Origin: a virus
IMG/VR virus record: IMGVR_UViG_3300037010_001255
Location: 1-45,375 of that record
Strand: one strand, 5' to 3'
Length of the DNA stretch: 45,375 nucleotides
Part shown: in pieces, positions 1,656-27,025 of the stretch
Numbering within the stretch: position 1 is the stretch's first letter
Layout: each line of letters starts with the position of its first letter
Program-made: the position numbers and the translations under genes
Notes under the pieces: generated by a model
Told to the model about the DNA's origin: nothing
Database searches by the model: none
Seen by the model: the letters and a program-made list of their open reading frames with translations, nothing else

Positions 1656-4367
1656 TTATACATACGACCCCTTGATTCTCAAAATCTTGCCGAACTTGAG
1701 AACATCTGGGGAGGTGATCTGCGATGCCGAGATCGGGGTGTAGTGACGTGCCTCCGGGGCCACAAGAATTTGTCTACGCTGCGTAGAATTGTAGTTCAGT
1801 CCAATGTGGATCCAGCGCCACTGCGAGCCATTCCCTTCGAGGATGATCTGGTCGAAGTTCAAACCACTTTGAATAGCCAACCAGAAGAATGGCTCGCACA
1901 GTAGGTCGCCCTGACCGGGGGACGGAATGATGTCGGCAGCTAGAGCCCACTTGTGCATCGACTTATTCGAATCATTCGAAGGGACATAATACCTGTAAAA
2001 AGAGTTTAGCTTACCCCCGGCTCCAGGGAACTTGCCGTACTTATTTATGATCGGGTCAAGTATCTGCTTCGAGAACTTTTGAGCGAAGCAGAAGACCTCG
2101 AAGTCAGCACACAGCTTCGCGCCGAGGTTCGGGTCGGTGCCATCCTTTAGCTCGTAGCAGTCCTTCAATTTGATGTTATCGGACATAGGGTATCCAGCGG
2201 GAATCTCCTTCGGGATCTCCGACCCGAGGTAGTCCTGTTTGCCCCAGAACGTACACTTGAACGGAGCACCTGCGCCAGTTGCCCTGATGATCGGCGGGGT
2301 GCGAACGCTGCCGGACCTGGCTGCTCCGGAGCCACCGCCTCCCTTCTCGCGAAAATAGCGGTAGTCGTTCTTCATTCGTCGGACTTTGTCGACGTAGCTT
2401 TCACGCTCTACGATTGCCCCATTCACAGTGATGTTCGGGATCGTTGTAAAGTACATATAGGCCGTCATCGAGACGCCGACTTTCTCGGACATCCAAGGCG
2501 TGGTGAAGTGATATTTTACCGCCTTGAGGCGGTACTCGCCAGAGTTGACTTCATCGTCGCGGTTGTAGAACTTAAGAGTATACTGAAGATTCTCGGTCAT
2601 CGAGAAGACATCCACGTTACAGAGCTGCACAGTGACGCTCAGGGCCTTCTCGCGGATGCTGTCCTGTAGCTGTGTCAAGTTATACGGGTTATCATTATTT
2701 CCCCAATATGTTCTCTGCACTGCATCGTCGTCCATGTTGATGTCGCAATCTGTCATCACTGAATCGTCCTGACTCGTCTGGATGACTCGTACGTTTTCAC
2801 CATCGATGATCTTTGAAGCATTGTTCTTCTTGATCTCGTACTGTTGCATAGTACGAACCACAAAGATATTGGATGTTTTGTCAATAACGGATCCTTCCTC
2901 GAATTCAGGAATCGTAAGGCGAGTGTTCTGATCCATGATTTCAATAAGGCACTGCTCCACCGTATTCTTGGCTGGGGCGCTACCGCCCTTGTCTGTTACT
3001 GTCACGAGCGTCTTGTTCGTGAACGCGCCGGTTGCTTCGTCCTTCTCAGAAACCACAGTATCGAACATGACACGGATCCCGGTCTTATAGACGCCGTACT
3101 TCTCTTGTAGCTGCTTGAGATTCTGTGCTACCGAGCCGGGATCGAGAATGATCTGTTCGTACTTCGTAACGTTGTCGGGTGGTGTGATCGTGAACTTCAC
3201 GATGTCTTTGTCTGCAACCTTCTTGTTCTTTTGATCGTTATAGGCTTCGTTCAGGATTGCCATGATGACGTCCAGAACCGTCACATCTATATACACCTTT
3301 GCACGAACCTTGCCATTGACGTCGACGTTGCGGCGGCTCACGAAGTCTAGTGAGATCTTATGACGCGGCACGCCAGCCATCGGGTGCGTCTCGAGTACAG
3401 CGTCCGTTGGCAGAATCAGGTTGACCGGCGTCATCGGGTGATTATCTAATACCGTTATCTTAATCAAGTACTCATTCTGCTGCTTCATCCGGTTGCGTTG
3501 CCACTTCCGGACCGTCATGTAGAACCGCAGCTGCTCGAAGTTCTCTTTGAAGTCCCGGTAGTGTAGATCTGTTAATGCCATAGATACGGTGTAGACTGGC
3601 ATAACGAGCAGATCATACTCCATTGTGTAAATGAACTCGTTGATGTATTGGTCGATCCGAACCATCTCGTTGTCGGGGCGGATATAGTACAGCTCGAAGT
3701 CGTAGACCCACTGATCGAGAACTCGCTCCGGAATACGCTGGTTTTTATCTCCATCCACAGCGGTCTGCAGTTTCGTGGGTTTATCTGACAGCTGCTCAGT
3801 TCTAGACTCGCCGAGGATTTTTTTCTTGATCATCTCGACTTGCTTCACGAGCGGCTTTATATCGTCAAGATAATCCTCGATGATACTCTTCTGCTCAGGA
3901 TTCAGTTCATCAGAACGGCATTTAGAGTCGAGGTCCTCGATAGAGTACTCCGTCAGCATAGCCGGGTTGAAGACCTTGTCGATCAGCTTGTCGCGGACAA
4001 GAGCAAGATCGGTGACGGCCAGCATCGCTTTGATGTACTTCTCATGTCCCTGCACGGCTTGTATCGTGGGTTCTTCGCCTTTATTTTGCCCGAGAAGCTC
4101 GTTGTAGACCTCCTCTATCATTACCTTTGTGGACGACAGCATTGCTGATTCGTATTTCTTGTAGATATCCGAATGCTTGAGCTTCAGGGTGTTAAGGTCA
4201 ACGAACTCCTTCTGATAGCGATTTTGCTCATCGATCTTCTTACCACTGGTCGGCTTCAGCCTCGACTGCGGTGGGTCGAGACGCTCGCTTATGTGTTCGA
4301 GCTTTAGCGAAGTCTGCTCGGTACGCTTAAGCTCATTCGCTAGATTGAAAATGGATGGAACTGTCAC
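1656..4367 (-). CDS. Tail-hub/baseplate-like protein with C-terminal M15 peptidase domain
   Basis: A 903-residue protein starting at GTG 4367, which has GGAG six bases upstream. The C-terminal 130 residues look like a zinc D,L-peptidase of the M15 (VanY/endolysin) type. The motif SMHKWALAADI gives metal ligands His805 and Asp812, and RWIHIGL gives His854. The usual Gly of SxHxxGxAxD is Ala808 here. The N-terminal 250 residues are charged and helical. The middle is beta-rich and resembles large virion proteins that sit at the tail tip. A hub that cuts peptidoglycan cross-links during infection is the likely role: the peptidase motif is seen, the hub assignment is inference. A strong terminator precedes it and its U-tract touches this gene's SD. 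Confidence 0.7.
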   Translation of the reverse strand: MTVPSIFNLANELKRTEQTSLKLEHISERLDPPQSRLKPTSGKKIDEQNRYQKEFVDLNTLKLKHSDIYKKYESAMLSSTKVMIEEVYNELLGQNKGEEPTIQAVQGHEKYIKAMLAVTDLALVRDKLIDKVFNPAMLTEYSIEDLDSKCRSDELNPEQKSIIEDYLDDIKPLVKQVEMIKKKILGESRTEQLSDKPTKLQTAVDGDKNQRIPERVLDQWVYDFELYYIRPDNEMVRIDQYINEFIYTMEYDLLVMPVYTVSMALTDLHYRDFKENFEQLRFYMTVRKWQRNRMKQQNEYLIKITVLDNHPMTPVNLILPTDAVLETHPMAGVPRHKISLDFVSRRNVDVNGKVRAKVYIDVTVLDVIMAILNEAYNDQKNKKVADKDIVKFTITPPDNVTKYEQIILDPGSVAQNLKQLQEKYGVYKTGIRVMFDTVVSEKDEATGAFTNKTLVTVTDKGGSAPAKNTVEQCLIEIMDQNTRLTIPEFEEGSVIDKTSNIFVVRTMQQYEIKKNNASKIIDGENVRVIQTSQDDSVMTDCDINMDDDAVQRTYWGNNDNPYNLTQLQDSIREKALSVTVQLCNVDVFSMTENLQYTLKFYNRDDEVNSGEYRLKAVKYHFTTPWMSEKVGVSMTAYMYFTTIPNITVNGAIVERESYVDKVRRMKNDYRYFREKGGGGSGAARSGSVRTPPIIRATGAGAPFKCTFWGKQDYLGSEIPKEIPAGYPMSDNIKLKDCYELKDGTDPNLGAKLCADFEVFCFAQKFSKQILDPIINKYGKFPGAGGKLNSFYRYYVPSNDSNKSMHKWALAADIIPSPGQGDLLCEPFFWLAIQSGLNFDQIILEGNGSQWRWIHIGLNYNSTQRRQILVAPEARHYTPISASQITSPDVLKFGKILRIKGSYV

Positions 4368-4377
4368 AGCTCACTCC

Positions 4378-4454
4378 AAAAAAAAAGTCATCTAACGAGA
4401 AGTTTCGTCGGTACGCCTATGCTACAGCGCACCGACGATCATCTCGTTAGATGA
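4378..4454 (-). terminator. Long two-part terminator hairpin with nine-T tract
   Basis: On the minus strand, a 13-bp stem (TCATCTAACGAGA with its complement, 4388-4400 / 4442-4454) encloses a second inner stem around CGTCGGT/ACCGACG. It is followed by nine T. The TAA of the gene ending at 4447 lies inside the stem. The T-tract runs straight into the GGAG Shine-Dalgarno of the next gene (4374-4377). Confidence 0.85.
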
Positions 4455-5505
4455 AAGAGAACAACACCGGCTCTTCAACGATCCCGCCAAAGTACTCCAG
4501 ATTGTAGTGGTTGAATTCCTTGCGCGATATCCGGTTGCAATCGTTAAATTGCGCGAGGATGTCAAGACGCTCAGCATCATCAACGGCGGAGGCATGGGCG
4601 AATACGTTGTAGCAGGAGTCACGCTCTCTCAGTTTCAGTATAGCATCGTCGGAGACCAGCCCCTCAACGGCGGAGTAGTCGATGAACTTCATCTCGCTCT
4701 GCCGGATCTTGTTGATTAGGTTGATGGCTTTCTTGTTTTTGAAGTCATCCACGGCGCACTCATCGTCGCCTCCGACGAGATTCAGAAACAGGCGTATGTA
4801 GGAGTCATCGATTGTGGTCTCTTCTTCCTTTTTGATTGTCCACTTGTTCTTCTCAAATAGATAACGGAAGAACTTGTTCCTCGAGATAGACCGTGAGTGT
4901 TCTCCATTTGCCCGGAAATTCAGGAAGTTGCGAAACTCGGATGATATCTCATGGAAGAGCGGATCATCTGACAGGAAAATATTGTGCACAGACAAGAGAT
5001 TATCCTTGACCAGCAGCGGTATGCAAGTCAGATCGCGTTCTCGCGAGTTCACCACCCGCAGCCCTGGTATACAAGGTGCTATCCGCTGCACCTTGTTGGC
5101 GAGAAAGCCGAGGTAAGATGGCTTAACTGTCTTACCTGTACGGACAGATCCGTACAGCTCGTTTATCGCCGTCTTGGCCGGATCCGGGAGACCGGAATCA
5201 AACAGCAGCACAAACTCAGCGCGGCAACTGCGCTTCTCTGTGAGGTAACGCTTATAGTGAACAACGAGGTTCAGCAGCTCCGCGATGACACGGTTTGAGC
5301 TCGGGATCAACTCCTGCGTTACAGCATCCTTATAATATTCAATCCGCATAATGTCAAGGACGTAGCGGACATCGATGAACATGGTGACTGTCGTGTCAAT
5401 GAGATTATCGCTAACAAGATCGTCTAGCATGCTATATCGTATCTTCTTTCGATTGAAGGCGAAGCTGACGATGTCGGACTCGTTCGCCTCGTGTTTGTGG
5501 CTCAT
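4447..5505 (-). CDS. Unknown protein downstream of the RNA polymerase genes
   Basis: A 352-residue protein if translated from ATG 5505, which is preceded by GAGGAAGAAGAACT, a good SD. The same frame stays open upstream through a run of ten A into the DUF4326 gene, giving a possible 445-residue fusion that starts at 5784. The protein has an alternating beta/alpha pattern with Asp at strand ends (MFIDVRYVLD, VLLFDSG, NIFLSDD). That is compatible with a PIN/5'-nuclease-like fold, but I cannot confirm it. It follows beta' and beta on the same strand, so a link to phage transcription is possible but unproven. Its stop codon lies in the stem of its own terminator. Confidence 0.75.
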   Translation of the reverse strand: MSHKHEANESDIVSFAFNRKKIRYSMLDDLVSDNLIDTTVTMFIDVRYVLDIMRIEYYKDAVTQELIPSSNRVIAELLNLVVHYKRYLTEKRSCRAEFVLLFDSGLPDPAKTAINELYGSVRTGKTVKPSYLGFLANKVQRIAPCIPGLRVVNSRERDLTCIPLLVKDNLLSVHNIFLSDDPLFHEISSEFRNFLNFRANGEHSRSISRNKFFRYLFEKNKWTIKKEEETTIDDSYIRLFLNLVGGDDECAVDDFKNKKAINLINKIRQSEMKFIDYSAVEGLVSDDAILKLRERDSCYNVFAHASAVDDAERLDILAQFNDCNRISRKEFNHYNLEYFGGIVEEPVLFSFI

Positions 5506-5784
5506 AGTTCTTCTTCCTCTATCTTTCGTTTTTTTTTTCGGGTTAGCGATCTCGATAAGCCAGTGTCCGTGGCACTCTTTTGGTTCGCAATGACAGATGA
5601 CATCCTTTCCGCGAAGTTCGTGGAGCGATTCCATGAGGTGGCGCTGTTTTGATAGCCATCGCTTGTATTTTGCTATGCATTGCAAATGCATCCCGTCCTT
5701 TCCGATGTGGAAGGGATTTGCCCACTTGCTGCCTGATGGGTACTCGCGACACAGACGACCAATGTAGATGGCTCCAGAGACCAC
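5502..5784 (-). CDS. DUF4326 domain protein, 3' end ambiguous at an A10 run
   Basis: About 90 residues matching the DUF4326 pattern: YIGR at the start, WANPF, a helix, then LRGKDVICHCEPKECHG. The Cys/His cluster (CHCEPKECHGH) is the family hallmark; the activity is not known to me. The start is GTG 5784, the only start codon directly before YIGR, and it has no clear SD. As sequenced, the frame continues through A10 (T5529-5538 on the plus strand) into the next gene. With nine A it would instead end in KRKIEEEEL and a TGA at 5504-5502. That TGA overlaps the ATG of the next gene, a classic coupled ATGA junction. Sequencing indel, polymerase slippage and genuine fusion are all open. Confidence 0.65.
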
Positions 5785-13391: not shown

Positions 13392-15095
13392 TCAACTTAA
13401 GTACTTTTCAAGATTCTTCAGCACGTCGGACACTGTGGGGAGCCCGAGCAGCTGATTGCCAATCTTAACGTAGTCGGCTTCCGCCAGCAGTGCCGGGATC
13501 TCATCATCGAGCTCCGGCTTGTCGTAGCAGCGGATCTTACCGACCATCGTGTCAGCATCAATGTTCCACGCTAGGATGATTGATGGGTACAATGATGCCA
13601 AGTCTTCATCAATGACGTTCTCATAGACCTTCGCGGAACGCACGCCATTCAGCTCGATGCCAACAGGATCCATGAGTTTCGACAGGGCCACGAACGCGCC
13701 ACGGAACTTCTCCTTCTCGCCATGGTCCTTGTGCTTGTTGTGGTTGTTGGAGAGAATGAACCCTTCACCCTCCAACACCATCGCTGCGAAGTTTCGGATT
13801 GAAACAGTCTTTGTCATGACTTTCGAAAACCGTGTGGCTGTCATGAGGGACATCTTATACAGCAGGTCGATGTCCTTGTTCTTTTCCTCGAGTTGGTATA
13901 GCCGGAAGGAGTCGTACAGCGAGTACTTTAGGAAGCCTTCGAAGTCGACGTAGAGCGCGTCGGTGATGTCGCCCTCGTACTCGTACTTCGACTCGCCAAT
14001 TTCCTCCAGCAAGATGTCGCCGAGAGTGTAGCTCTCGCGCTTGCCCATGGTAGCTCGGATCGAGGCGAAGTTCTCAAGAAGACAGATAAACTGTGTATAA
14101 CCAGTGACCTCAAACTGCGACTTCTTTTTAGAAAAATCCGTGTTGAACGTGTCGGGTCGGATCATCACTTGTTTGTAGGGAAACTCGGCAGGGCACATGA
14201 CCTTAGAGGTATTCACTCCTTCGTTGAGAAGGCGCATCTCCATCGTTTTCATGTCGAACGACGCATTCCAAGCTCCACAGAAGTCGGGCTTATCGCGCTT
14301 CACCAGCTTGAAGAACGCCTTGATCAGCTCGATCTCGTCCTCATAGATGTGAAACTTGATGTCGCTGACCTGCTTGAACTTCATCTTGCTATTCATGTTG
14401 CTGGCATTGAACTCGTCTAGCAGGTGTCTGACATAGTCCCCCTCATGTTCGGCAAGGGCCTCGAGGAACTCGGTCTGGCTGTGATTGTCTTCGTTCCGGA
14501 GGATGAATGAATGTAGCACCATCGTTGGCTCGTATAAGTACGAGACTAGTGCCACCGGGCGTGGTGCTTCCTCCGGTTCTGGGAAGCCTTCGTAACCGAA
14601 GATGTCGACCTCGATGTCGAAGAAAGCCTTCGAGATCGGAACGATGGTCTTTTGGTCGTGGTTTGCCTCCAGCCACTCACGGATCTTGTAGTCTGCGAGA
14701 TGCATGTCGGATAGATGCGTGTTGATGTCCTTGTCGAGGTTGGACAAGTCGCGGAATCTACCGTTCTTTACACACGCCTTGTAGTAGTCCATCTGGCCGG
14801 AGATCTCGGCAATCTTCTTTGGCATGTCCGCATACCGCACCGAGATTGGTCGGCATTGATCTTTGGCGACGTAGTTGACGCCTTCATCACTGATTTCTTG
14901 ATCAGTACCAATAAGATGATGTGTGCTGTAGAACGTGTAGTGTGGGTCTTCCTCGACCTCGATGTGCTTTTTAACTGTCCCGTCCGGAAGCTGGTGATTC
15001 TCGACGTAGATGACCTTCGGGTCTGCGCGGTATCCATGCTCATTCTCGGCTCGGAGGAAAATTACATTTGATAGAGACTTCACAACTTGTGACAT
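13392..15095 (-). CDS. Family-B DNA polymerase, N-terminal part (exonuclease and motif A)
   Basis: A 567-residue protein. The 3'-5' exonuclease motifs are all present: Exo I FFDIE (Asp160, Glu162), Exo II NASFD (Asn277, Asp281) and Exo III YSLYD (Tyr391, Asp395). The polymerase motif A, DLASLYPS, follows at residues 498-505 with the catalytic Asp498. The protein then stops about 60 residues later. Motif B (KxxxNxxYG) and motif C (DTDS) are missing here and are found in the plus-strand gene at 25064-27025. Together the two halves make a full polB. A hairpin follows the stop, so this is a defined gene end and not an intron or sequencing break. ATG 15095 has AAGGAGAACC before it. Confidence 0.88.
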   Translation of the reverse strand: MSQVVKSLSNVIFLRAENEHGYRADPKVIYVENHQLPDGTVKKHIEVEEDPHYTFYSTHHLIGTDQEISDEGVNYVAKDQCRPISVRYADMPKKIAEISGQMDYYKACVKNGRFRDLSNLDKDINTHLSDMHLADYKIREWLEANHDQKTIVPISKAFFDIEVDIFGYEGFPEPEEAPRPVALVSYLYEPTMVLHSFILRNEDNHSQTEFLEALAEHEGDYVRHLLDEFNASNMNSKMKFKQVSDIKFHIYEDEIELIKAFFKLVKRDKPDFCGAWNASFDMKTMEMRLLNEGVNTSKVMCPAEFPYKQVMIRPDTFNTDFSKKKSQFEVTGYTQFICLLENFASIRATMGKRESYTLGDILLEEIGESKYEYEGDITDALYVDFEGFLKYSLYDSFRLYQLEEKNKDIDLLYKMSLMTATRFSKVMTKTVSIRNFAAMVLEGEGFILSNNHNKHKDHGEKEKFRGAFVALSKLMDPVGIELNGVRSAKVYENVIDEDLASLYPSIILAWNIDADTMVGKIRCYDKPELDDEIPALLAEADYVKIGNQLLGLPTVSDVLKNLEKYLS

Positions 15096-15868: not shown

Positions 15869-16678
15869 TTATATCAGGAGGAGGAACTTTTTCTTGTCGT
15901 CCTCACTGATGAAAATGCTCTTGAGATACGACTGCTTGAGCCGCTCGGCAAGCTCAACCACGTCATCCCTCTTGTGGAATCGGGCGTGCTTCGACTTTCC
16001 TCTGAGATTCTTCACGACCTCCATCATTTGATGATAGAACTTGTAGAACTCGTCAACCGGCATGTCGATGTACTGGGCACATCCCACGAAAGATTTGCTA
16101 GATCCCAGTTCGCATTTCTCGTAGAGGCGCATTCGGAGCATTCTGCGTAGGATCTCGGAGTTCTCTTTCGCTCTTTCCGGGTCCTTGGTCTTAAAGCTCA
16201 CGAAGACACCACGGATGTGGTTACTGTCGAAGCTGCCGTCACTCGGCTCCGGAACGCTGAAGAAGACTTCGGACACATCGCGGTTCTGCGTCAGAAGCGA
16301 GGGGCCGAGCTTGTCGACGACCTCTCGCAAGAAAACGCGCTTGTCAGACATCGTAAGCGGCTCGATGAACTCGGCATAGTCTTCAAAGGGGATCTCGACC
16401 GCCGCCTCACGGAGCAGTGAACGAACATCCTCCTTCATTCTGGAAATATCATGGCTCACGTGGTAGCCATTAGGGTTCTTGCCCCAGTCATAGTAGCCTT
16501 TAAGGCGGCATTGGGCTTCGACGTGAGCAAGAGTCTTTGATCGGATAGTCTTGGATCGCCTCACTGGCTTTCCATTTTGCTTGTCAATGTTTTCCTTCCG
16601 CAGTTTTGTTAGTTCTAGTAACGTCGTATGGGTCTCTTGGATACGGTCAGCGTAATCTTTGGTGATCTGAGATACCAT
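15869..16678 (-). CDS. Unknown protein, first gene of the polymerase operon
   Basis: A 269-residue charged, mostly helical protein. The start is ATG 16678 (MVSQITKDYADRI) with AGAGG upstream. The open frame extends to 16783, but that extension crosses the promoter-like motif at 16710-16724, so it is not coding. A basic patch follows the start (KPVRRSKTIRSK). Near residue 185 is a Ser/Lys/Cys segment (CELGSSKSFVGCAQYIDMP). No family was recognised. The 5' end of this gene, including codons 2-6, resembles two non-coding copies at 18964 and 19611, which shows that this promoter region has been copied. Confidence 0.75.
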   Translation of the reverse strand: MVSQITKDYADRIQETHTTLLELTKLRKENIDKQNGKPVRRSKTIRSKTLAHVEAQCRLKGYYDWGKNPNGYHVSHDISRMKEDVRSLLREAAVEIPFEDYAEFIEPLTMSDKRVFLREVVDKLGPSLLTQNRDVSEVFFSVPEPSDGSFDSNHIRGVFVSFKTKDPERAKENSEILRRMLRMRLYEKCELGSSKSFVGCAQYIDMPVDEFYKFYHQMMEVVKNLRGKSKHARFHKRDDVVELAERLKQSYLKSIFISEDDKKKFLLLI

Positions 16679-16768
16679 TGTTCTTGCCTCTTTTCGGTTT
16701 TGTACAGTTTCATAATATATTTTCGAAAAGATTTCTAGGAAAGCTAGAGGACGAGTATATTGGAATCG
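16661..16768. repeat. Divergent promoter-region repeat R1
   Basis: This copy holds a GGTGATCTGAGATACC half-palindrome (also codons 2-6 of the 15869-16678 gene), the promoter motif, and then TTCTAGGAAAGCTA plus AGGACGAGTAT and TGGAATCG. The last part equals the SD and start region of the plus-strand gene at 19728, except that its ATG has become ATT (near 16758-16762). R1 is therefore a decayed copy of the start of that gene. R1 and R3 (19611-19741) bound the accessory island. Confidence 0.65.
16710..16724 (-). promoter_or_regulatory. Putative phage promoter, copy R1
   Basis: The minus strand reads GAAAATATATTATGA, about 32 bases before the start at 16678. The same 15-mer, with at most one change, occurs at 19011-19025 and 19662-19676, each upstream of a minus-strand gene. 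The core resembles the TATATTAC element of phiKZ early promoters. Confidence 0.55.
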
Positions 16769-16933: not shown

Positions 16934-18826
16934 CTACTCGTCTTCCACCCATTCCGAGATGTTTGCCCCACAAGAGGGACAGATTTCACAGTCAGGGTGA
17001 ACTTCGACATTACAGTACTCACAGAAGGCATCACTGTCCTCCATGAGTTCATTGACTGGCCCGATAACAGTCTGCTGCTGCGCTTCTGCGACGGCTTGCG
17101 CCATCGCTTTACACAGCGCCTTGCCGAGAACTGGTTGGCTCTCATCATTCGCTTCACACACTAGGCGCACAGAACGTGCGTCGGTGTATGAGAGGCTGAA
17201 TGCACACATCGGTGCATCCTCTTCATAAGCGTCAGAAAGCATGTCAGAAACACCGTAGGAAGTGCTTCCAACATACACTTTCTTCACCCCCATCCTCCCA
17301 ACTACGGTTTTCGTAGCAGCTAGGAAGATATCTGCGATTATTTGACGACGGGCCAGCGCCTCGATGGAATCGAGAACAATCGTATCCCCAGCCCTTGATC
17401 TCCAGACAAAGGACTGTGCCACCATCCTGCCACCTTCAAAAACCGCCCAGATTGCAGCATCTCCTTCTGTCCAGCTCTGGCGCGCACAGCTTGCTGCCGC
17501 GCCGTGTAGGTGCTGGCAGCAGTTTACTAGGCGTCCAGCTAGAGGCTGGATGAGATCATCGTGAGCAAGCTGCACCAAGTGTAGTTCGTCAATTTTGATC
17601 CCATCCTTCCCGCCTGGGGCGGGTATACCAACAAACGCCTTGGGCGGGGATGCCCAGAGACGCTTGTAGTCTGCTTTTTCGGGCTGAGAAAGCAGTACTC
17701 CGTATGCCAAGTCGGTGAGACCAGGAATACAGGTAGCGGCATAGCGGATTTCTGCAAGGTCGCTTGGGATATGACCGAGCTCACGCTCGATTATGCCTGC
17801 CACTGACAACCATTCCCTGATTTGTACCGGGTAGTGGTTGGCTAACCCTGCCCACCCCTTGCGATCCCATTGAGAACCGCGAGTCGGCAGAGTAAACTGC
17901 CCAGCGTCATGCAGCCCGCCGTTGGCTTTTACAAAGCGGCAGGCTGCTGCCATATCGCGCCCGAAAAGAAGCGCGATATAAACGGCGGGGATGAAATTGG
18001 CCGCCATCACATCCTTCTCCGTACTCAAAAGAGCACGGAGAGTGCTCTGCGCCACCTCAAAAGGATTGAGGAGAAGTAGCACATCTGCCACGTCTTTCCA
18101 CTCGACCCGTAGGTTGAGGTTGGAAAATATTTGCTCCCAACCCCAACGGACGGGAGCATACCCGGCCATGACCGCCGCCCTCGACCCCTTTTGAGCTACC
18201 TTTACGGCAACCCAGTTTAGGTCGCGGATTCGGAGAGGCTTATCCCTCTCTTGTGGCAGGCCGCTGATCGCAGCCCATCTGGAATGCCATGTAAGTCGCC
18301 CTAGGGCGGCAATGGTCTTCCGGGGTAGGTACAACATCCCCTCCAGACGATTATTTCTCAGCCACCTCCATCCGCGTACATAGGCGATAAATTGAGGCAC
18401 CGATTCGCCCTTGCGGGCGAAGATTCCGATTGCTACTTGCAACCGGAATTTTGGCGAGTTCCGACAGCCCGCAGCATACCACATACGGGCGATATCAGAT
18501 GGAGCCAGCCCATAGTGGCCCCAGCTGTCCCATCCACCATTGGAGCGGGAGCCGTCGGGAAGTATTTCTCCCCAGTGGCTCCCGATTTTACTAGTCATCA
18601 CCCCTTCAGCTATAATGTAAGCTTGAGGGTCGACTTTGGGGCCATATGCCAGAGCGGGCCAATAGGCCAGCCCTAGTCTCTCGGCCCTGCGTTTCACAGC
18701 CTGACGGTCCAAGTATTTATGGATCGTTAGGCTGGTACGTTCCGCACGGCGTGCGATTTCTAGCCGTGCGGCACACTCCGCGTAATACTCGCGGAGCCCT
18801 TCCTTTATTTCTATTTCCAATTCCAT
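16934..18826 (-). CDS. Large accessory protein with CCQ/AQS motifs and C-terminal zinc ribbon (PcfJ-like)
   Basis: A 630-residue protein. ATG 18826 is chosen for the GAGGAG SD; the ATG at 18880 lacks one. The C-terminal third contains LVNCCQHL (near residue 435), MVAQSFVW and IVLDSIEAL. That motif order recalls uncharacterised phage and conjugative-element proteins related to PcfJ; the match is from memory and tentative. The last 35 residues form a zinc ribbon (CEYC, then CEICPSC). The N-terminal 400 residues are Trp/Arg-rich and helical. Its composition looks more GC-rich than the neighbours, and it ends in TAG, which is a minority stop here. It lies in an island bounded by promoter repeats. 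The role is unknown; an accessory, host-interaction function is inference. Confidence 0.65.
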   Translation of the reverse strand: MELEIEIKEGLREYYAECAARLEIARRAERTSLTIHKYLDRQAVKRRAERLGLAYWPALAYGPKVDPQAYIIAEGVMTSKIGSHWGEILPDGSRSNGGWDSWGHYGLAPSDIARMWYAAGCRNSPKFRLQVAIGIFARKGESVPQFIAYVRGWRWLRNNRLEGMLYLPRKTIAALGRLTWHSRWAAISGLPQERDKPLRIRDLNWVAVKVAQKGSRAAVMAGYAPVRWGWEQIFSNLNLRVEWKDVADVLLLLNPFEVAQSTLRALLSTEKDVMAANFIPAVYIALLFGRDMAAACRFVKANGGLHDAGQFTLPTRGSQWDRKGWAGLANHYPVQIREWLSVAGIIERELGHIPSDLAEIRYAATCIPGLTDLAYGVLLSQPEKADYKRLWASPPKAFVGIPAPGGKDGIKIDELHLVQLAHDDLIQPLAGRLVNCCQHLHGAAASCARQSWTEGDAAIWAVFEGGRMVAQSFVWRSRAGDTIVLDSIEALARRQIIADIFLAATKTVVGRMGVKKVYVGSTSYGVSDMLSDAYEEDAPMCAFSLSYTDARSVRLVCEANDESQPVLGKALCKAMAQAVAEAQQQTVIGPVNELMEDSDAFCEYCNVEVHPDCEICPSCGANISEWVEDE

Positions 18827-18984
18827 TTCTCTCTCCTCTCCCCGCAGCCAAGGGGGAAAAACAAATTCAACCCTGCGCATGGGCTACCCGGATTAGCTAG
18901 ATCCGGCACGCACAGGGGAACTGCTCGTGTGCAGTTGTCAATGTGGGGGTAGGAAGGTACTTTGGTGATCTAAGATCATCATTC
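18827..18984 (-). promoter_or_regulatory. Leader with a tiny ORF and hairpins
   Basis: Between the promoter at 19011-19025 and the gene start at 18826, the minus strand holds GGGAAAGA-ATG-ATG at 18985-18980 opening a 14-codon ORF (MMILDHQSTFLPPH, stop TGA). This is followed by a hairpin around GCACAC/GTGCGTGC and a small CCGGAT/ATCCGG stem (18888-18906). The layout is reminiscent of an attenuator, or it is the decayed start of a former gene; the tiny ORF resembles the one at 19611-19627. Confidence 0.3.
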
Positions 18985-19010
18985 TTTCCCTTTTTTATTT
19001 CATACCAAAC

Positions 19011-19025
19011 TCATAATATATTCTC
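19011..19025 (-). promoter_or_regulatory. Putative phage promoter, copy R2
   Basis: The minus strand reads GAGAATATATTATGA, one base different from copies R1 and R3. It drives toward the accessory gene at 18826. The sequence on its far side (CAAAAGGGTTTCACTTT) also matches R3, so the repeat is longer than the promoter itself. Confidence 0.55.
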
Positions 19026-19171: not shown

Positions 19172-19495
19172 TTATGACACCTCCACGAGGAGCCATCTAA
19201 TATCGGCTCCTTCCGGAAGGGATGTTGCCCCTTCCGGCAAGCGCGGCCCAATATATTGACCGACAATCAGACTAGCGCCTTCTCCTAGGAACACAGTCGC
19301 CCTGCTTGGGTGAACATGCAATTTTAGCAAGTTTGTAAAAATTCTTGCGATATTTGTGTTCTCAACCGCTGATATGAAACCGGCGTCGAGTTTTCTCGCC
19401 GCCTGATAGAAAGTTAGAGGGGTGATAGTAATCACACTCCCCGTAGTTTGTAGGTCGGCAAACATGTTCAACGAAAATACATTACTCAGGATCAT
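19172..19495 (-). CDS. DUF1874 / AcrIII-1-like ring-nuclease family protein with His-to-Asn change
   Basis: A 107-residue protein, the normal length for DUF1874 (STIV B116-like; AcrIII-1). Family hallmarks are the start LSNVFSLNM, the strand-loop FISAV, SRATVFLGEG, and VGQYIGPRLPEGATSLPEGA with a terminal WLLVEV. Characterised AcrIII-1 proteins degrade cyclic tetra-adenylate and so block type III CRISPR signalling. Their catalytic His lies in the motif GHxST/GHADT directly after this FISAV equivalent. Here the segment reads ENTNIA, so the His position is Asn46, while Arg85 and Glu88 of the GPRLPEG motif remain. Ligand binding without cleavage, or another ligand, is possible. ATG 19495 follows AGGAGAAGGAT. 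It is alone on its transcript, inside the repeat-bounded island. Confidence 0.85.
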   Translation of the reverse strand: MILSNVFSLNMFADLQTTGSVITITPLTFYQAARKLDAGFISAVENTNIARIFTNLLKLHVHPSRATVFLGEGASLIVGQYIGPRLPEGATSLPEGADIRWLLVEVS

Positions 19496-19610
19496 ATCCT
19501 TCTCCTAGTATTGGAGCATTGGGGGGGGGACCAGATCCCATAGGGCTTGGTCTCCATGCAGGTTTGATGAAAAGAAAATAATTGCGATATTGTTGAGATT
19601 TACCCTCCTT

Positions 19611-19741
19611 GGTAATCTAAGATCACCGTTCTTTTCTTCTCCTTTCGATCTCGCAACAAGCTCATAATATATTTTCAAAAAGGCTTTACTTTTTTAAAAA
19701 GCTTCTAGGAAAGCTAATAGGACGAGTATGATGGAATCGCA
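19611..19741. repeat. Divergent promoter-region repeat R3
   Basis: It contains the palindrome GGTAATCTAAGATCACC (19611-19627), the promoter motif, and the intact start of the plus-strand gene at 19728 (TTCTAGGAAAGCTAATAGGA then ATG). R2 (18964-19050) shares the palindrome, promoter and following 35 bases. R1 (16661-16768) shares the palindrome, promoter and gene-start part. Confidence 0.65.
19662..19676 (-). promoter_or_regulatory. Putative phage promoter, copy R3
   Basis: The minus strand reads GAAAATATATTATGA, identical to R1. It points toward the DUF1874 gene with a leader of about 165 bases. That leader includes a C9 tract (19521-19529 as G9 on plus) and a small ACCA/TGGT hairpin. Confidence 0.55.
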
Positions 19742-25063: not shown

Positions 25064-27025
25064 ATGCAGATAAACGGAGAGCCGATTGGAGCTTTCCTTG
25101 ACAAATACTTCGAGGCTCTGTTCAGTCGCCTCGAGCGCATCGTAGAGTTGGATGACAACCAGCGGATGCGCTTAGCTGAGAACATCGCGGCAAAGATCAC
25201 ATCAATCCTCGTTTCTGTCGAGAATAACTATCGCAACACCGAGATGGAGACCGACACCAAGAAGCTACTCGATCTTTACTATTCGAAAAACCCGATAATT
25301 TCCGGCTACGGGGTGTTATTTAAGGGGAATGCTATTAATGCACCCGGCAAAATCCTTGAGTACCTAATCAAGAAGCGGAAGGTTGTCAAGCACGAGATGT
25401 TCCAACATGCAAACGATGAAGACAAAACGTTCTATAACACCCTCGACGTCGAGCAGAAGGTGATCAAGGTGTTGGCGAATGCCTTCTACGGCGCATTTGG
25501 TCAGAACAGCTTTCATTTTTACAACCCAGTGCTCGGCCCTTCAGTAACCTATAGTGGGCAGCATATAACGATTAGTGCAATCCTCGGCTTTGAAGGTTTC
25601 ATGACTGGGAATATTCGGTTCTTCAACTTCGATGAGATCCTCAAGTACATTGATAATATCGACCGAGAGCCGTTACATGAGATCTCAATCCGGCAGAATA
25701 CAACGACTCCGGAGACCGTCGCTACGTGGCTCAAGCAACACTGTAAGTTCGAATTTACCAATGAGCACGATATGTACCTCGATGCAGTGCTTGGTAGTAT
25801 GAATAGTTATCAACTTGAGCGCCTTTTCTTCAAAAACAACTTGTTCGCAATGCTCAGCACACCGACCATCAGAGAGCTATTCGAACAGTGTTTCGACCGC
25901 GACTTCATGAATCCTGACAAGCCAACTGAGACAAACAAGGAGGCTATCGAGACGCTGAACGAATACTTCGAGTACTTCCTATCGTATCCGTACCAGTGGG
26001 ATGACAAGGAGCGCCACATCGCTGACATGCGCCGCAAGTGCGTCATCATTTCTGATACCGACTCGACATTCCTTAATATCGACCCGGTAGTGGAGTGGTA
26101 CGAGCAGGAGCTCAACGGCGGTGATCGTCTTGACAAAATCGGCCGCATCGCGGTTTGTAATATCATGGTCTATGCGATTACGAAATTCGTTGAGAAGATT
26201 TTTGGGCAATTGACGAAAAACATGAACATCCCGGAGGATCGAAGAAAGCTGATTAACATGAAAAGCGAGTTCAACTACTCGCGAATCATCTTGACGAAAA
26301 ACAAGAAGCAATACGCCGGGATCATCGTCCTACAGGAGGGTAATCTGCTAGAGAAGCCGAAGTTCGATATCAAGGGTCTCGATATCAAGAAGGTCAAGAC
26401 ACCGAAGATCGCACGGGAATACTTCGGCGAAGTGCTTGAGAAAGACATGCTGCTCTGCGACAAGATCGACCCGATGAGCGTCTTTATGAAGTTCATCAAG
26501 TTTGAGCGTCAGATTTACGACAGCCTTACGGCTGGCAAAACGTCGTTCCTGAAGCCAAGCAAGTTCGGTAGCGAGGACGGTTACAAGAAGCCCGGTCAAA
26601 TCCAAGCATACCGTGGCGTTAAGCTCTGGAATATCATGTTCCCGAGGGAGACGATTCCCGACTTCTCCAACGTGAATCTCCTGAAGCTGCGGAAGATCAC
26701 GCCTGAAGACTACAAGGACTATTTCCCGGAGGAGTGGCATGAGGCTATCGAGGCGTATTTCGACTACCAACTGCCAAAGACTAAGGGACAGGATTCGGAG
26801 GACAGTGAGAAAAAAGTCAAGACTTGCCTTGGTGACTACGGGATCGATGTGATTGCTATCCCGAAGAGCAAAGATGCCGTGCCAGAGGTCTTCCGTGACC
26901 TAATCGACACTACCAATATCATCGATGCCAACATGAAGAACGGTAACATCCTTCTTGAAAGCATCGGCTTCAAGGTCGTTAAGTCCCTGAAGCAGGATAC
27001 GATTACTAACATCGTGGAGGTATAG
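25064..27025 (+). CDS. Family-B DNA polymerase, C-terminal part (motifs B and C)
   Basis: A 653-residue protein. Motif B is KVLANAFYG (Lys135, Asn139, Tyr142, Gly143). Motif C is VIISDTDS (Asp331, Thr332, Asp333, Ser334), supplying the second catalytic Asp. A long palm/thumb region follows (KKKQYAG-like segment KNKKQYAGIIV near residue 410). The exonuclease domain and motif A are absent and are encoded by the minus-strand gene 13392-15095. The first 110 residues are helical finger-like sequence, so the split falls in the fingers between motifs A and B. The two chains would have to assemble. ATG 25064 has AAGGAGATCCCA upstream. Confidence 0.88.
   Translation: MQINGEPIGAFLDKYFEALFSRLERIVELDDNQRMRLAENIAAKITSILVSVENNYRNTEMETDTKKLLDLYYSKNPIISGYGVLFKGNAINAPGKILEYLIKKRKVVKHEMFQHANDEDKTFYNTLDVEQKVIKVLANAFYGAFGQNSFHFYNPVLGPSVTYSGQHITISAILGFEGFMTGNIRFFNFDEILKYIDNIDREPLHEISIRQNTTTPETVATWLKQHCKFEFTNEHDMYLDAVLGSMNSYQLERLFFKNNLFAMLSTPTIRELFEQCFDRDFMNPDKPTETNKEAIETLNEYFEYFLSYPYQWDDKERHIADMRRKCVIISDTDSTFLNIDPVVEWYEQELNGGDRLDKIGRIAVCNIMVYAITKFVEKIFGQLTKNMNIPEDRRKLINMKSEFNYSRIILTKNKKQYAGIIVLQEGNLLEKPKFDIKGLDIKKVKTPKIAREYFGEVLEKDMLLCDKIDPMSVFMKFIKFERQIYDSLTAGKTSFLKPSKFGSEDGYKKPGQIQAYRGVKLWNIMFPRETIPDFSNVNLLKLRKITPEDYKDYFPEEWHEAIEAYFDYQLPKTKGQDSEDSEKKVKTCLGDYGIDVIAIPKSKDAVPEVFRDLIDTTNIIDANMKNGNILLESIGFKVVKSLKQDTITNIVEV

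Follow-up and report, generated by a model that had tools for sequence, protein, structure and literature searches.

A DUF1874 protein with asparagine at the position of the catalytic histidine, encoded by an accessory gene of a phiKZ-related jumbo phage

A viral record of 45,375 bases (the window, i.e., the whole stretch of DNA analysed) encodes a protein with the DUF1874 fold of AcrIII-1 and Crn2 in which the catalytic loop is rewritten and the histidine is replaced by Asn46, a combination found in this one member of the family among the sequences collected. The gene lies beside a rare partner gene in an accessory insertion and follows a promoter-like element that recurs in the window. The chances appear about even that this is a natural non-cleaving DUF1874 protein, an anti-CRISPR enzyme turned nucleotide binder and carried in an early two-gene cassette with an orphan protein, a reading that covers both a cA4 sponge and a receptor for a different defence nucleotide. 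We infer less firmly that binding has been retained, which ligand would be preferred, and that the protein would act in counter-defence.

19172..19495, minus strand: DUF1874 (AcrIII-1/Crn2 fold) protein of 107 aa with Asn46 for the catalytic His, from homology, alignment and predicted fold

Phage of origin

The window is part of the genome of a phiKZ-related jumbo phage of the phiR1-37/AR9 type, as judged from the identity of its major capsid protein to those of Yersinia phage phiR1-37 (47%) and AR9/PBS1 (35%) and from PHROG matches to head, portal, sheath and DNA polymerase families. The phiKZ-like traits proposed in the initial annotation are borne out by these capsid identities and structural genes, and the homologous capsid, sheath, portal and polymerase genes place the phage on the phiR1-37/AR9 branch of the phiKZ-related jumbo phages. 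Two genes on opposite strands, 13392-15095 (minus) and 25064-27025 (plus), seem to share its family B DNA polymerase between them across a distance of about 10 kb: one encodes the exonuclease and the start of the polymerase part, and the other matches DNA polymerase. A minus-strand gene at 4447-5784 encodes 445 aa with an N-terminal DUF4326 domain (E 7e-20).

Family membership and predicted fold

The open reading frame of 107 residues exists as the initial annotation described it, on the minus strand, which had been left unsaid, and the DUF1874 motifs quoted there are all present in its translation. Membership of the family is well above chance by several independent routes. In a tblastn search of 2.3 Gb, the DUF1874 protein of Thermoanaerobacterium phage THSA-485A was matched at E 8e-8; the closest IMG/VR relatives, L005 (3300044959_000328) and L006 (3300010289_000007), are 51% and 47-48% identical; PHROG 5063 is matched at E 2e-6; and profile matches include SIRV1 gp29, AFV3-109 and STIV B116. 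The Pfam PF08960 score, 19.3 bits and thus under the gathering cut-off of 26, is compatible with a divergent member. A PADLOC match to 'Csx16' was set aside as not discriminating, since ordinary DUF1874 proteins match that model too, most of them better.

An AlphaFold2 model built from a 73-sequence alignment has a mean pLDDT of 94.2, and its top structural match is 6scf (Z 14.3, 104 residues aligned), a SIRV1 gp29 structure whose sequence reads SIGADST and is thus itself a His-to-Ala form. Further matches, at Z 12.8-13.9, are 2x4i, 2j6b, 2j85 and the Crn2 domain of Csx1-Crn2, and homology and fold together (Z 13-14 for 6scf, 2x4i, 2j6b and 2j85) assign the protein to the DUF1874/STIV_B116-like fold family. 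The profile search, alignment and structure prediction that had been proposed as checks confirm the family, put N46 on the His column, and return a His-to-Ala AcrIII-1 structure as the nearest in fold.

The rewritten catalytic loop

19349..19363, minus strand: catalytic loop, codons 45-49, with E-N-T-N-I in place of the G-H-x-D-T of relatives, from alignment and sequence reading

Ring nucleases of this family normally break down cA4, a messenger of bacterial CRISPR defence, to A2>P. The histidine of AcrIII-1-type enzymes is the likely general acid (PMC12830947). Pairwise, profile and multiple alignments agree that N46 occupies its position (H47 of SIRV1 gp29), and the arginine and glutamate of the RLxEG motif are kept as R85 and E88, both as first described. 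A register that would place Glu45 rather than Asn46 on the histidine was ruled out by the alignments with L002/L005, with L006 and with the profile.

The change extends beyond the histidine, with four near-invariant loop positions altered (G45E, H46N, D48N, T49I). In the 73-sequence alignment, 25 columns reach 90% identity or more across the 72 relatives and are taken as near-invariant; of these the window protein keeps 20 and departs at five, namely A6V and the four loop changes, which occupy every near-invariant column of the catalytic loop (hypergeometric 4e-4, taking departures as spread evenly). The strictly invariant columns other than the histidine (N5, M11, R65, R85-L86-P87-E88-G89, L93 and P94) are all kept, as is Gln80, and every other row of the alignment has at most four departures, none at the histidine. 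In the wider set D48N occurs in three sequences and T49I in six (the window counted), and glycine stands at position 45 in 112 of 115, the window having glutamate; because D48 and T49 vary occasionally elsewhere, G45E and H46N are the telling changes. A sequencing artefact was judged unlikely, as it would need four altered codons in an otherwise intact frame. Read from the sequence, fast cleavage of cA4 has very probably been lost.

Conservation of the histidine and the DUF1874 tree

Distinct sequences numbering 115 were collected, one of which does not cover the histidine site; the histidine is present in 113 of the remaining 114, the sole exception being the asparagine of the window. Scans of the family with the C-terminal half, which are blind to the loop and hence carry no bias toward the histidine, returned no other His-less member. 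No His-less cellular member occurred among the site-covering matches in genomes of two phyla, plasmid copies in Nitrosomonas, Thermus and Thermoanaerobacterium all have the histidine, and a DNA pattern scan for the ENTNI loop gave 27 stretches, none of them DUF1874. Uniqueness of the loss thus holds for the collections and search sensitivity used. There is no second DUF1874 copy within the 45,375 bases, which are part of an incomplete phage genome.

In the tree the window protein is sister to L006 (support 99/95), and since this nearest relative has the histidine, in an intact loop, the loss is derived. The terminal branch of the window protein measures 1.08, versus 0.46 for that of its sister, and branches as long are also found among other His-bearing members.

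Several family members were noted in passing. A 7.5-kb viral contig (L011) carries two His-bearing DUF1874 genes, at 474-839 and 2912-3295, and the 120-kb IMGVR_UViG_3300021440_000015 (L007/L118 and L161) has two DUF1874 matches, one canonical and one more distant. In genomes from the phylum of an Aquificales MAG (L234-L244), several frames of 560-613 aa have a DUF1874 domain near the C-terminal end, with I/V-S-H replacing I/V-G-H; these are probably Csx1-Crn2 fusions.

Accessory insertion and putative expression signals

16934..18880, minus strand: partner gene for a 648-aa orphan protein with a zinc-ribbon-like C-terminal end, co-inserted with the DUF1874 gene, from locus comparison and profile search
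19502..19506, minus strand: Shine-Dalgarno AGGAG upstream of the DUF1874 ATG, from sequence reading
19657..19675, minus strand: early-promoter-like element AAAATATATTAT-6N-G before the DUF1874 gene, resembling the AR9 early consensus AAATATATATTAT-6N-G
19006..19024, minus strand: second early-promoter-like copy, AGAATATATTAT-6N-G, before the partner gene, a repeat of the element
16705..16723, minus strand: third early-promoter-like copy, before the conserved gene 15869-16677, a repeat of the element

Two related jumbo contigs, L116 (capsid 87% identical, 136,853 bases) and L117 (75%, 263,413 bases), have the neighbouring genes in the window order but lack both extra genes between the divergent pair, and no DUF1874 was found in either record by a search that matched three other viral records. 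The DUF1874 gene and its neighbour at 16934-18880 are therefore an accessory insertion. At 0.49, GC3 of the DUF1874 gene falls below the 0.56-0.72 of the other genes measured in the window, a difference that would fit acquisition.

On the minus strand, the DUF1874 gene is preceded by AAAATATATTAT-GAGCTT-G, the partner gene by AGAATATATTAT-GAGTTT-G and the conserved gene 15869-16677 by AAAATATATTAT-GAAACT-G; the three repeats have similar flanks and each precedes a minus-strand gene, and the matching intergenic region of L116 has one such element, AAAATATATTAT-TGGTCT-G. The early promoter of AR9, AAATATATATTAT-6N-G, is ascribed to the virion RNA polymerase (PMC5312081). The window element is shorter and the AR9 polymerase is reportedly sensitive to promoter deviations, so the assignment rests on recurrence and on the G at constant spacing. 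Given this repeated AR9-type element, early expression of the DUF1874 gene is likely, and would be compatible with counter-defence; together with the Shine-Dalgarno sequence, the element makes the gene look expressed and not decayed.

The partner gene and the question of drift

The partner protein gave only weak zinc-ribbon matches in Pfam, no match in NCBIfam or PADLOC, and no relative in the phage and plasmid collections; its predicted structure, from a two-sequence alignment, has a pLDDT of 36. In two scans of viral contigs a single relative came up, on a 40,992-base contig (L245), with 42% identity by tblastn and 46% in global alignment; the stretches N-C-C-Q-H-L-H-G and W-T-E-G-D-A-A-I-W-A-V-F of the 648-aa protein are conserved. 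On that contig the partner is followed, after 100 bp, by a DUF1874 gene that has the histidine. Both viral copies of the partner that were found thus adjoin DUF1874, in opposite gene order and in unrelated phages, and the partner gene is absent from all other loci fetched around DUF1874 genes. As adjacency of two rare genes on two occasions is unlikely, this suggests a functional pair or a co-transferred two-gene cassette, with the proviso that n=2 is small.

These observations bear on the alternative that the nucleotide role is gone, the protein either drifting or being retained to serve the adjacent 648-aa partner as regulator or subunit. The long tree branch, the low GC3 and the recurrent adjacency in unrelated phages would all accord with it. 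Against it stand the intact reading frame, Shine-Dalgarno sequence and promoter-like element, the 20 of 25 near-invariant columns kept when about one third would be expected on a neutral branch of this length (P ~3e-6, a rough estimate), and the DUF1874 protein of the other cassette, which keeps its histidine. On balance this alternative seems somewhat unlikely.

Binding, cleavage and choice of ligand

The explanation that we favour, although tentatively and at somewhat short of an even chance, is that the DUF1874 protein of this jumbo phage binds cyclic oligoadenylate and holds it without fast cleavage, which would lower the free messenger. On this view an accessory early gene of a phiR1-37/AR9-like phage yields a DUF1874 protein, presumably a dimer as in solved relatives, that has lost the general-acid loop of AcrIII-1 and kept the remaining invariant residues. 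It would bind cA4 or a close relative produced by host defence, and holding the messenger would leave less of it free during the first minutes of infection. In its favour are the match of the model to 6scf, the kept invariant columns, the derived loss of the histidine, and the early-promoter-like element, Shine-Dalgarno sequence and open frame. Binding of cA4 without turnover is moreover plausible because mutants of two family members behave in this way: inactive H47A AcrIII-1 binds cA4 with a KD of ~25 nM, compared with 130 nM for the Csx1 effector (PMC7213978), and Csx1-Crn2 H495A gives no cA4 degradation and binds cA4 at ~20 nM (PMC7293037), both His-to-Ala forms thus binding more tightly (20-25 nM) than Csx1.

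Several points stand against it. The acidic side chain of Glu45 could, from its place in the sequence, repel the phosphate ring or disturb the pocket. The messenger is also abundant, with ~1000 cA4 made per target RNA (PMC7213978), and by simple arithmetic a cA4 sponge must field ~1000 dimers against ~1000 ligands per target RNA, so that each handful of targets would call for protein molecules in the thousands; the authors of one study consider that attempts to sponge type III messengers may be in vain (PMC13148439). The native anti-CRISPR role of AcrIII-1 has itself been disputed (Nature 2025 640:E8, as cited in PMC12751052).

The main nucleotide-based rival to a sponge is that the rewritten loop changed the ligand, the protein binding or acting on another defence nucleotide such as cA3, cA6, a CBASS cyclic nucleotide or SAM-AMP. 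Alteration of four adjacent loop residues together, with the remaining conserved positions kept, is compatible with this as much as with a sponge, and cA3 and cA6 were indicated as still able to compete for the Crn2 site (PMC7293037). Crn1, Crn2 and Crn3 are, however, described as cA4-specific (PMC12409355, PMC12830947), and we regard a changed ligand as unlikely.

Ring nucleases of other families include Crn1, which lacks a catalytic His. Slow residual cleavage of cA4, in which Arg85 and Glu88 would position the 2'-OH for in-line attack without a general acid, would suit the kept Arg65, Arg85 and Glu88 and has precedent in slow ring nucleases of other families such as Crn1 (PMC12409355), but Csx1-Crn2 H495A degraded no cA4 and AcrIII-1 H47A is described as inactive (PMC7293037, PMC7213978). 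Slow cleavage by the window protein seems quite improbable.

Relation to known systems

Among viral ring nucleases AcrIII-1 is the best known, and a natural His-less member, if truly a binder, would mean that phages can trade turnover for binding in the DUF1874 fold, or can retarget the fold. It would also put to the test the view, stated in the literature, that the abundance of type III messengers defeats sponging. The recurrence of the partner gene suggests an accompanying function not yet described.

In its proposed mode of action the window protein would resemble the phage sponges Tad1, Tad2, Acb2 and Acb4, whose targets are instead CBASS or Thoeris messengers. The folds of these proteins are unrelated to DUF1874. 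Csx15, a cA4 sponge or slow ring nuclease, provides a precedent for mainly sequestering cA4 but belongs to another fold family, forms filaments, and is reportedly absent from phages (PMC13148439). The Crn2 domain of the Csx1-Crn2 fusion (8y7f, 8y7g) is common to both proteins, and its H495A mutant, which binds cA4 tightly and does not cleave it, is a laboratory analogue of the window protein; the fusion differs in being cellular, in residing in type III loci and in having its native histidine. With AcrIII-1 (SIRV1 gp29; 6scf, 2x4i) the window protein shares the fold (Z 14.3), Arg65, Arg85 and Glu88 in window numbering, and a virus-borne gene, whereas it has asparagine for the catalytic histidine and E-N-T-N-I for G-H-x-D-T, and is only 16% identical in structural alignment, being known from sequence alone. 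Closest of all are the DUF1874 proteins of L005 and L006, which have the same GQYxGPRLPEGAT C-terminal half as the window protein and differ from it in that their catalytic loop is intact.
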